Source of the DNA: Paenibacillus amylolyticus
GTDB lineage: Bacteria; Bacillota; Bacilli; Paenibacillales; Paenibacillaceae
DNA length: 64,000 nt
Assembly: GCF_029689945.1 (NCBI RefSeq)
Contig: NZ_CP121451.1
Location: forward strand, 5,580,001 to 5,644,000
Reading direction: 5' to 3'
The position numbers and the translations under genes are program-made. The notes under the pieces are model-generated. The model did no database searches, had not been told where the DNA came from, and saw only the letters and a program-made list of their open reading frames with translations. Positions 53,723 to 56,199 of this stretch are shown here, in pieces; the first letter of the stretch is position 1; every line of letters begins with the position of its first letter.

Positions 53723-53956
53723 ATGATAAAAAAACATGAAATATACAAAACAGACAAGTGGAATATGATGACTGTAGAAGTTCAGGGCAAATATCTCGTA
53801 CTGCGCGAAATTTCGGAAGAGTGGGGCGAAGAATGCCATACATTCCTTAGCCGTCCTGCCTTAATGCACTGGGCTGAGCGCCGCTTCCCAAAAGCAGATT
53901 TTGAGAACCGTGAGGATGAATGGCGTCAATTGATGGCTGCCTTCAAAGGGGTCTAA
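53723..53956 (+). CDS. Small protein of unknown function, 77 residues
   Basis: ATG 53723 follows GGAGACTACCT. It is soluble and Trp/Glu-rich (EISEEWGEECHTFLSRPALMHWAERRF) and ends EDEWRQLMAAFKGV. No family was recognised. The next small gene begins 3 bp later, so the two form a pair. Confidence 0.7.
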   Translation: MIKKHEIYKTDKWNMMTVEVQGKYLVLREISEEWGEECHTFLSRPALMHWAERRFPKADFENREDEWRQLMAAFKGV

Positions 53957-53959
53957 CCC

Positions 53960-54145
53960 ATGCAGCTTGATTCAAGCAATGTCGTCATTTTTATCATCCT
54001 TGCCTTCTCCCTTGGTATTGTGCTTGTTTTGGGGCGCAATTCTATTCCGGATCGACTGAGACGGGGAATGGCGCTTATTGCGACCCTGCTCATTTGTTTC
54101 GCCTTTTTCTTAATCGTTTATTTCCTCTATAACATGGGAGCCTAA
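53960..54145 (+). CDS. Small membrane protein, 61 residues
   Basis: ATG 53960 follows AAAGGGGTCTAACCC. Two membrane helices (NVVIFIILAFSLGIVLVLG and MALIATLLICFAFFLIVYFL) are joined by a short basic loop (RNSIPDRLRRG). Function is unknown. It is coupled to the preceding gene and followed by pepF 85 bp later. Confidence 0.7.
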   Translation: MQLDSSNVVIFIILAFSLGIVLVLGRNSIPDRLRRGMALIATLLICFAFFLIVYFLYNMGA

Positions 54146-54230
54146 TCTCAAGGAACCGTGGTCTTCAAATATTTCAACGCGCCTTAGGTCATACTATACG
54201 CGATTATTCGTATGGTAAGGAGGAAGGCCG

Positions 54231-56150
54231 TTGAAATATCAGAAATCGCTAGCTGTAATACTGGTACTTAGTCTGATTCCTTCGTCTCTCCCCGCACAGG
54301 CGAGCGCAACGAAGGCAGCTTCGTCCACCCATTCATCAGATCATCAAAGGAGGATTACCATGAGTCAACTATTGAAACGTTCCGAGGTGCCAGCTGAGCA
54401 CAGCTGGAAACTGGAGGATTTATTTGCCGATCAGAAAGCCTGGGACCAGGAATATGAAGAAGTATCGTCTTTGACCAAGAAGGCCTCCGAATTTCAAGGC
54501 AAACTGAATGACCCTGATGTCCTCAAATCTTGCTTCGAATTCGAAGATGAGATCAGCCTCAAAATAGAACGCCTCTTTGTATACGCACGCATGCATCAAG
54601 ATGAAGACACAGCCAATCCTACATATCAAAACCTGTCCCAAAAAGCGCAGAAATTAAGCGTTCGGGTAGGTGAAGCACTATCTTTTGTAACACCGGAGAT
54701 TCTTTCCCTTCCGGATGATCAGTTGGACGCTTTTATCAAGAACGAAAAACTCTCTGCGTACACATTTACGCTGGAAGAGATGAAACGGGAAAAAGCCCAC
54801 GTTCTTAGCCAGGCAGAAGAGGCTTTGCTTGCACAGGTAGGCAATCTCTCACAAGCTCCACAGACCATCTTCAGCATGCTGAATAACGCCGATCTCAAGT
54901 TTCCACGAATTAAGGACGAACACGGTAATGAAGTTGAGCTGACTCATGGCAGCTACATTCAGTTCCTTGAGAATCCCAATCGTGAAGTTCGCGAACGTGC
55001 CTTCAAGGCGGTATATGAAACCTATGCCAAACAGAAGAACACGATTGCGGCTGCCCTGAATGCAAATGTAACCAAAAATATGTTCTATGCCAATGTTCGG
55101 AAGTATCCTTCCGTGATGGAAATGTCCTTATATGGAGATAACATCCCAACGGATGTGTATACGAACCTGGTAGACACCATTCACGAGAGCCTTCCGTTAT
55201 TGCATCGATACATGGATTTGCGTAAAAAGTTGCTGGGTGTGGATCAATTACACATGTATGACCTGTTCGCTCCACTCGTAGACGAGTACAAAATGGATAT
55301 TACCTATGAGCAAGCGAAACAAACGGTCAAGGACGGTCTGAAACCACTCGGCAAGGACTATGCAGATGCCTTGCAGACTGGATATGATAACCGCTGGATC
55401 GATGTATATGAGAATGAAAATAAACGTTCAGGTGCTTATGCATGGGGCGCTTACGGCACTCACCCGTATGTTCTGTTGAATCACAAAGATAACCTGAACA
55501 GCATGTTCACACTCGCCCATGAAATGGGTCACGCTCTGCATTCACATTACTCGGATACAACACTTCCGTACCGTGATGCCCAGTACACCATCTTCCTGGC
55601 TGAGGTTGCATCCACAACCAACGAAGCGTTGCTGATGGATTATCTGCTTAACAAATCAACTGATCCAAAGGAAAAACTGTATCTGTTGACCTATTATGCG
55701 GACCAATTCCGTACAACGGTATTCCGCCAAACCATGTTTGCTGAATTCGAGAAAATCATTCATGAACGTGCGGAACAAGGTGACGCATTGACACCACAAT
55801 TGTTATCCGAGATCTATTATGATCTGAACGTGAAATATCACGGTAAGGATATGGTTGTTGACAAAGATATTGAGATGGAATGGGCTCGTATTCCCCACTT
55901 CTATAACAGTTTCTACGTATACAAATATGCTACAGGCTTCTCTGCCGCGACCAGCTTCTCCAAGCAAATTCTGGAAGAAGGTCAACCTGCTGTTGACCGT
56001 TATCTTGGTTTCCTGAAGAGCGGTGGCAGTGATTACTCCATTAACATTCTGAAGAAAGCAGGTGTAGATATGTCTACACCTCAGCCAATTCGTGAAGCGA
56101 TGAGTGTATTCAAGGAATTGATTGAACAGATGGAGCAACTAACCAAATAA
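54231..56150 (+). CDS. pepF: Oligoendopeptidase F, M3 family, with two in-frame starts
   Basis: Zinc oligopeptidase. From TTG 54231 (GGAGG 7 nt upstream) the product is 639 residues with a signal peptide (MKYQKSLAVILVLSLIPSSL, cleavage near AQASA). From the internal ATG 54360 (AAAGGAGG 6 nt upstream) it is 596 residues and begins MSQLLKRSEVPAEHSWKLED, the usual PepF start. The zinc site is FTLAHEMGHALHSHY with the downstream glutamate in FLAEVASTTNEALLMD. Both starts have near-ideal ribosome sites, so an exported and a cytosolic enzyme may be made from one gene. Confidence 0.93.
   Translation: MKYQKSLAVILVLSLIPSSLPAQASATKAASSTHSSDHQRRITMSQLLKRSEVPAEHSWKLEDLFADQKAWDQEYEEVSSLTKKASEFQGKLNDPDVLKSCFEFEDEISLKIERLFVYARMHQDEDTANPTYQNLSQKAQKLSVRVGEALSFVTPEILSLPDDQLDAFIKNEKLSAYTFTLEEMKREKAHVLSQAEEALLAQVGNLSQAPQTIFSMLNNADLKFPRIKDEHGNEVELTHGSYIQFLENPNREVRERAFKAVYETYAKQKNTIAAALNANVTKNMFYANVRKYPSVMEMSLYGDNIPTDVYTNLVDTIHESLPLLHRYMDLRKKLLGVDQLHMYDLFAPLVDEYKMDITYEQAKQTVKDGLKPLGKDYADALQTGYDNRWIDVYENENKRSGAYAWGAYGTHPYVLLNHKDNLNSMFTLAHEMGHALHSHYSDTTLPYRDAQYTIFLAEVASTTNEALLMDYLLNKSTDPKEKLYLLTYYADQFRTTVFRQTMFAEFEKIIHERAEQGDALTPQLLSEIYYDLNVKYHGKDMVVDKDIEMEWARIPHFYNSFYVYKYATGFSAATSFSKQILEEGQPAVDRYLGFLKSGGSDYSINILKKAGVDMSTPQPIREAMSVFKELIEQMEQLTK
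54346..54362 (+). promoter_or_regulatory. Internal ribosome-binding site and start in pepF
   Basis: AAAGGAGG (54346-54353), 6 nt, then ATG (54360), in frame 43 codons after the first start. The upstream start has an equally strong site at 54219-54223. Confidence 0.75.
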
Positions 56151-56173: not shown

Positions 56174-56199
56174 ATCCCTTGCCCGTATGGGCAGGGGAT
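56174..56199 (+). terminator. Terminator after pepF
   Basis: ATCCC..GCCC pairs with GGGC..GGGAT around GTAT, then TTTATAAT. It lies 25 bp past the stop. Confidence 0.75.

Follow-up and report, generated by a model that had tools for sequence, protein, structure and literature searches.

The SpeA protein of Escherichia coli and Salmonella has two in-frame starts, and a differing compartment has been suggested for its shorter form in portions of two reports (PMC11005335; PMC13245402). From the same portions it is clear that, in enterobacteria, a start inside a gene can yield a form devoid of the export signal that the other form carries (PMC11005335; PMC13245402); among the Salmonella pairs described are PagC and OmpX, of which the longer form carries a predicted Sec signal peptide and the shorter one does not (part of PMC11005335). 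Gain and loss of signal peptides between orthologues is documented in part of a further source (PMC5952966).

The pepF gene described here, located in a 64,000-nucleotide stretch of the Paenibacillus amylolyticus genome (hereafter the window), shares with speA the layout of one gene with two in-frame starts. SpeA is enterobacterial and another enzyme, whereas the pepF layout is found in Gram-positive bacteria, in most sampled members of an order, with a promoter motif of sporulation type and an inner ribosome site conserved at the RNA level. PagC and OmpX are outer-membrane proteins, whereas PepF is a soluble enzyme; common to these three is the predicted signal peptide of the longer form. We found no report of a two-start PepF in the open-licence literature.

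PepF of Bacillus subtilis is termed intracellular in a section of PMC7055314, in which PhrA persisted for hours in cell-free supernatant, and deletion of pepF barely altered the signalling read-out. Overexpression of PepF inhibits sporulation of B. subtilis, as cited in a section of PMC6527061, which also places a PepF-like protein of P. larvae in exoprotein/secretome data. An Anoxybacillus PepF was likewise listed in a secretome although its authors, in the relevant section, predicted no signal peptide (PMC8007923); secretome matches consequently prove little.

Materials and methods

The genus-level search recovered pepF from 75 of 75 genomes, 74 of the matches occupying open frames 632 or more codons long and the one in G054 being partial; the family-level search gave a match in 177 of 177 genomes (among the matches listed). 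Merging of identical start regions reduced 335 loci to 305. The main set comprised 226 deduplicated pepF loci with at least 64.5% identity to the window core, which we take to represent roughly the window's order, Paenibacillales by name. A 166-locus set was drawn by a stricter hydropathy line from the 188 loci with at least 70% identity; of the 22 loci thereby dropped, 16 constitute the loss group described below, and six pass the later signal-peptide rule. A thinned set consisted of 84 representatives.

Our home-made signal-peptide rule calls for an n-region of net positive charge, ten residues that are largely uncharged and average at least 1.8 in hydropathy, and an ATG, GTG or TTG start. 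As background for the Shine-Dalgarno duplex energies served 4199 NTG codons from within the pepF coding sequence of 60 loci. The codon analysis relied on 37 of 41 close relatives; L111, L112, L119 and L120 were excluded because their start does not lie 43 codons upstream.

Results

The pepF reading frame of the window (54231-56150, forward strand, as are all features given below) encodes 639 amino acids and contains two starts in the same frame. The first-pass annotation had claimed that TTG 54231, with GGAGG at 7 nt, opens a 43-codon in-frame extension resembling a signal peptide, and direct reading bears this out. An in-frame TAA (54216-54218) is followed, after four codons, by TTG 54231-54233, the sole ATG, GTG or TTG codon within the extension; its Shine-Dalgarno sequence AAGGAGG (54217..54223), evident from direct reading and from relatives, lies 7 nt upstream. 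Codons 1-24 (54231..54302) form the predicted signal peptide, composed of the segments MKYQKS, LAVILVLSLIP and SSLPAQA, and codons 25-38 (54303..54344) a linker between it and the inner ribosome site. This second Shine-Dalgarno sequence, AAAGGAGG (54346..54353), is part of the reading frame, its AGG AGG being read as Arg-Arg, and 6 nt (ATTACC) separate it from ATG 54360-54362. That the usual PepF begins at this ATG had also been proposed and holds true: the core from start 2 (54360..56150, stop codon included) is a 596-amino-acid oligoendopeptidase F, and the TIGR00181 (pepF) match begins at residue 50, with ATG 54360 being residue 44. In having a separate ribosome site for either of its in-frame starts, the gene agrees with a SpeA-type proteoform pair.

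The enzyme itself is a clear oligoendopeptidase F, with a TIGR00181 score of 687.9 bits against a cut-off of 490.55. Its HExxH zinc site, HEMGH (55518..55532; residues 430-434 in long-form numbering), shows no variation at H430, E431, G433 or H434 across 36 aligned proteins, and solved structures of relatives exist (2qr4, 3ce2). Core and zinc site are the same in other members of the family (TIGR00181, M3B), but a rule-passing signal is absent from 15 other Bacillaceae loci (four other genus codes), from the 16 loss-group loci and from nearly all other outgroup loci. The own genome encodes a further PepF at C1:5171775-5173547, which is 32% identical, exceeds the TIGR00181 cut-off and has neither an extension nor a forespore-type motif, and two weaker M3 relatives besides. 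A consensus scan places an intrinsic-terminator-like hairpin downstream of pepF (56174..56199). Immediately upstream of pepF are two small open reading frames, 53723-53956 (77 amino acids) and 53960-54145 (61 amino acids), which gave no Pfam or NCBIfam match; of the 80 named pepF loci, 74 have a counterpart of the first and 75 of the second.

The nearest named records to the window are from Paenibacillus. Public records differ on the pepF start: entries of 596 and of 639 amino acids both exist, and what is apparently one P. polysaccharolyticus gene is recorded as 639 amino acids (P0005) and as 596 amino acids (P0025). Each annotation thereby displays one PepF form and conceals the other. A locus titled Paenibacillus polymyxa ISL-58 (L004) has a pepF 99% identical to that of the window, compared with 79-83% for other entries named P. 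polymyxa, and is possibly mislabelled.

The suggestion that the arrangement looks selected found support when relatives were compared. The upstream start and signal peptide are not missing from close relatives; the signal-peptide rule is passed by 207 of the 226 loci, or by 207 of 227 if L303 is counted, a locus of the same order (G425, 62% identical, without extension) that falls below the 64.5% line. Sixteen of the 19 failures come from a single genus group (code g7; here called the loss group), with Saccharibacillus among its members, and the remaining three (L221, L027 and L198) still possess a hydrophobic extension. A separate locus, L257, passes the rule and yet looks spurious. The conservation acts on two levels, with the inner ribosome site retained as RNA and the signal peptide as protein. 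By this comparison, maintenance of both starts by selection is well supported.

Upstream of start 1 in the window stand a -35-like element, AATA (54168..54171), and, 18 nt after it, a -10-like element, CATACTA (54190..54196). Forespore promoters recognized by sigma-F or sigma-G follow a consensus of the type NATR-N17/18-CATNHTA, and AATA-N18-CATACTA fits this consensus in both elements and in the spacer. CATACTA occurs upstream of pepF in 58 of the 84 representatives, versus 1.2 expected from first-order resampling, a count taken in the very loci in which the motif was first noticed and tempered by the controls and by the SASP check below; it is absent from the other 26, from all 16 loss-group loci and from all but two of 79 outgroup loci. 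The motif joined to a -35 part HATR by a spacer of exactly 18 nt is found in 47 of 84 (0.5 expected; a maximum of 3 in 40 shuffles), versus 2 to 12 of 84 for the remaining spacer lengths between 13 and 23. The full pattern NATR-N17/18-CATNHTA is present in 58 of 84 representatives, as opposed to 0/84 and 0/84 in coding controls and 1/84 on the opposite strand, and none was seen in the 16 loss-group loci, L303, L139 or the own paralogue. CATACTA never lies downstream of start 1 in the 58 loci, and in 54 of them it ends 15-80 nt ahead of this start, so that the resulting transcript would contain both starts.

The motifs of sigma-F and sigma-G resemble each other, a G ahead of the -10 element being typical of sigma-F and an A behind it of sigma-G (section of PMC3789822). 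Around the pepF -10-like element G and A stand at roughly comparable places. The pattern is not enriched genome-wide in the own genome (G000), with four matches against six in the reversed control. SASP genes are forespore genes, and like elements, under a looser pattern, precede three of their five matches in this genome, one with an identical CATACTA; of the two lacking a clear element, L370 has a poor promoter match and L371 is a weak match for which no frame was obtained. Taken as sequence, the motif 5' of start 1 resembles the sigma-F/G promoters of the forespore. A sigma-A-type promoter was rejected, as there was no forward-strand match between 53770 and 56178 and the six matches of the scan were no better than shuffles. 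Sigma-E, a first guess as the reader, stays a lesser candidate, since CATACTA and its spacing fit the forespore type better. Forespore control alone does not account for pepF expression: MsmR1 activates the gene in P. polymyxa, and a strain of this species that has lost endospore formation still transcribes it (section of PMC9722767), which implies vegetative transcription as well.

The loss group hints at a link between the extension and sporulation. In its 16 genomes neither SpoIVB nor sigma-G had a match over the cut-off, and the core PepF enzyme is retained; in the other 38 genomes tested, SpoIVB exceeded the cut-off in 38 and sigma-G in 36, the exceptions being G425, just under it, and the own genome, with an in-frame stop. 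The best sigma-G match of the latter (C1:3196823-3197425) covers model positions 54-254 only and contains a TAA, which is either a sequencing error or a mark of a broken sigG. In G321 and G425 (L303), SpoIVB is present and the pepF extension is absent. Because the loss group is a single evolutionary event, the association between loss of the extension and absence of sporulation genes is suggestive, not replicated. The absence of the extension where key sporulation genes are missing suggests a role of the exported form in sporulation or in the spore. Within the loss group, the inner ribosome site lies 8 nt from the start in 11 of 16 loci, 11 nt in two and 9 nt in three; it is thus off the old phase in 13 of 16, a shift to be expected if the frame had ceased to matter.

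Promoter choice itself might act as the switch between the two forms. In T4 late genes and in spoIIIG a hairpin conceals the start in read-through mRNA, and in the window an inverted repeat (ATATTTCAACG...CGTTGAAATAT; 54169..54239) extends from the -35 region, its 5' arm inside the promoter motif, to the region of start 1. On such a model, read-through mRNA would hide start 1 and yield cytosolic PepF only, and a forespore transcript beginning near 54204, devoid of the 5' arm, would expose it. The predicted fold of 54150-54290 (-41.9 kcal/mol, z -2.9, TTG paired), compared with that of 54204-54290 (z -0.4), agrees with this, as do an accessibility of start 1 of 0.58 in the short versus 0.21 in the read-through transcript, the transcription start near 54204 being assumed in both comparisons, and a few compensatory-looking changes in L088, L015 and L105. 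Against it, 2 of 20 shuffled 5' segments fold equally well in the window itself, and among 31 unique sequences of the clade 796 of 1084 cells pair (73%), with several pairs failing in half or more. A switch operating throughout the order was rejected: no more than one of 20 shuffles of the 5' segment equals the read-through fold at nine of the 56 loci, against about five loci expected. By these folding models the inverted repeat might occlude start 1 in read-through mRNA of the window clade, where the pairing of the start region shows few compensatory changes; as the explanation of the two starts, we regard promoter choice as unlikely.

In the comparisons, the extension looks like a protein-coding signal peptide. 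Extension sequences differ greatly among genera and retain their overall shape, with a positive n-region, an uncharged hydrophobic core and a small-x-small motif, all present under the home-made rule. The mean maximum hydropathy in the 166 loci is 2.19 in frame 0, compared with 0.93 and 0.65 in the other frames, and stops in the last 40 codons occur in 3, 141 and 107 of 166 loci in frames 0, 1 and 2, the three frame-0 cases being extensions of fewer than 40 codons. When the other two frames of the same DNA were read, they were open and rule-passing in 4/207 and 3/207. Of 209 ordinary gene starts backed by a Shine-Dalgarno sequence in the 80 named loci, 21 pass the rule; an internal AGGAGG plus start was found in four of 206 other genes of these loci, in none preceded by a signal peptide. 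Conservation and controls together rule out a chance origin of the layout, and a feature restricted to the genus is ruled out by the occurrence of the extension beyond it. A lipoprotein signal was dismissed, with no consistent lipobox seen in the extensions, as was a Tat signal, the Arg pair coming after the hydrophobic core and being the ribosome site.

In the close relatives, dN/dS is 0.30 for signal-peptide codons 2-25, 1.09 for linker codons 26-38, which evolve about neutrally, and 0.027 for the core; codons 2-38 jointly give 0.46 (bootstrap 0.35-0.67). The TTG start and Ala24 are invariant in 37 of 37, and cleavage between Ala24 and Ser25 (A22-Q-A24/S25) is likely. A small-x-small motif follows the hydrophobic core in 205 of the 207 rule-passing extensions. 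These observations bear on the possibility that both forms are made but that the long one is membrane-anchored or surface-tethered, or that the leader mainly regulates translation of the core. Some weight is lent to it by the longer, less classical extension of Bacillus and, in the window clade, by a hairpin that may cover start 1 and so hints at start regulation, but the near-universal cleavage motif, and an invariant Ala24 followed by a linker that drifts in the window clade, are what cleavage predicts; we deem an anchored form or a regulatory leader improbable.

The ribosome site of start 1 is strong: a duplex energy of -6 kcal/mol or below was found in 197 of 207 loci, versus 4.7% of the coding NTG codons, a figure flattered by taking the best among several candidate starts per locus, and it is weaker in ten. 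Start 1 is TTG in 61 loci, GTG in 30 and ATG in 116, with median SD1 energies of -10.7, -10.3 and -8.2, respectively. Start 2, by comparison, is ATG in 205 and GTG in two of the 207 loci, with a median SD2 energy of -10.9 and values of -8.5 kcal/mol or below in 206 of 207, versus 0.7% of the 4199 codons. The upstream start thus reads as if tuned below the inner one.

Most extension-bearing loci have Arg-Arg two or three residues ahead of start 2, written AGG AGG in 163 of 166 loci and in 70 of 84 representatives, although AGG accounts for only 0.8% and 1.8%, respectively, of core Arg codons in these two sets. Retention of AGG AGG despite this rarity argues that an inner ribosome site is being kept inside the reading frame. 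Among the representatives, GGAGG is spaced from start 2 by 6 nt in 73, by 9 nt in four and by 12 nt in three, and was not found in four. In four of the 207 loci (L189, L193, L197 and L201; genus code g12) the inner AGGAGG lies 12 nt from ATG, a poor spacing by which the inner start may be weakened, and four more are without GGAGG there. Were only the long, exported form made, the inner AGGAGG-ATG would be either left over from an ancestral start or a place where ribosomes pause. A leftover is conceivable inasmuch as extensionless relatives begin at an inner Shine-Dalgarno site plus ATG, but it would be expected to decay, and pausing requires no start codon at a fixed spacing; the AGG AGG of a gene that nearly avoids AGG, the 6-nt spacing and the near-invariant ATG consequently make this explanation very improbable. 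Least credible is that only the short form is made and the upstream stretch is an untranslated leader, open by accident: the conflicting records of apparently one contig (P0005, P0025) could be read that way, but the constraint on the signal-peptide codons, the open frame, hydrophobic core and cleavage motif of most loci, and the strong ribosome site of start 1 all speak against it.

Comparable layouts exist outside the order, in genera named from protein matches. The rule is passed by 23 of 24 Bacillus-type loci (g32), which have an inner GAGGGGG-ATG and an extension longer and less classical than those of the window's order, and by 6/6 and 5/5 Metabacillus-type loci (g141), which have classical signal peptides and an inner site, AAAGGGGG or like, of GGGGG type, mostly in another phase. 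B. subtilis PepF (YjbG; P0122) is recorded as the 670-amino-acid long form and, as an orthologue, shares with the window PepF an in-frame hydrophobic N-terminal extension; by eye, the two extensions show no evident sequence likeness, and they fall into separate clades of the tree. This tree, built by a quick method without mixture from 137 of the 305 proteins, thinned by k-mer likeness, leaves many forks open and omits 20 Bacillaceae loci, so that the number of gains inside Bacillaceae is not fixed by it. Its extension label needs five changes, at least four of them forced by starred branches, and two of the five fall on the doubtful rows L257 and L027; the other extension-bearing rows form two separate clades, the window's order on the one hand, and Bacillus with Metabacillus on the other. 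With the pattern used, no such promoter motif was found upstream in B. subtilis-type loci. A motif common to Bacillus and Metabacillus was rejected, the spacer-18 matches in 8 of 30 loci being taken as chance: all belong to L273-L280, where they lie 214 nt before the inner start, inside the frame of the extension. The same pattern occurs in two of 49 other outgroup loci.

Discussion

In the proposed mechanism, a single pepF mRNA would offer ribosomes two in-frame entry sites. A start at TTG 54231 would yield a 639-amino-acid precursor with a 24-residue Sec/signal-peptidase-I signal peptide, cleavage of which after Ala24 would release an exported mature enzyme of about 615 amino acids, and initiation at ATG 54360 would yield the 596-amino-acid cytosolic PepF. 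In the forespore, exported PepF would enter the space between the two membranes. We consider it likely that one mRNA with two starts provides both exported and cytosolic PepF, the exported form being tied to sporulation; translation from both starts, export and cleavage, forespore expression and function are inferred from sequence. The gene would then work as a SpeA-type proteoform pair, PepF being assigned by its sequence, and the exported, sporulation-linked form appears to be new as far as we have seen.

More tentatively, and with somewhat less than even confidence, we propose that a housekeeping cytosolic peptidase has gained a second, exported identity for sporulation across most of the order. 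A forespore sigma factor would transcribe pepF, the exported enzyme would reach the intermembrane space or the spore envelope, and the inner start would supply the cytosol; a lineage that had lost sporulation would have shed promoter and signal peptide and kept the enzyme, and Bacillus and Metabacillus would have arrived at a similar two-start layout separately.

If the exported form exists, the roles of PepF in peptide signalling and in sporulation need to be re-examined, B. subtilis 168 included, as the effect on sporulation attributed to PepF has so far been read as that of an intracellular enzyme. Neighbouring codons of this gene show selection at the RNA level, for a ribosome site, and at the protein level, for a signal peptide. 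If our reading is true, pepF would offer a clear and evolutionarily deep example of alternative bacterial starts that direct one enzyme to two locations.
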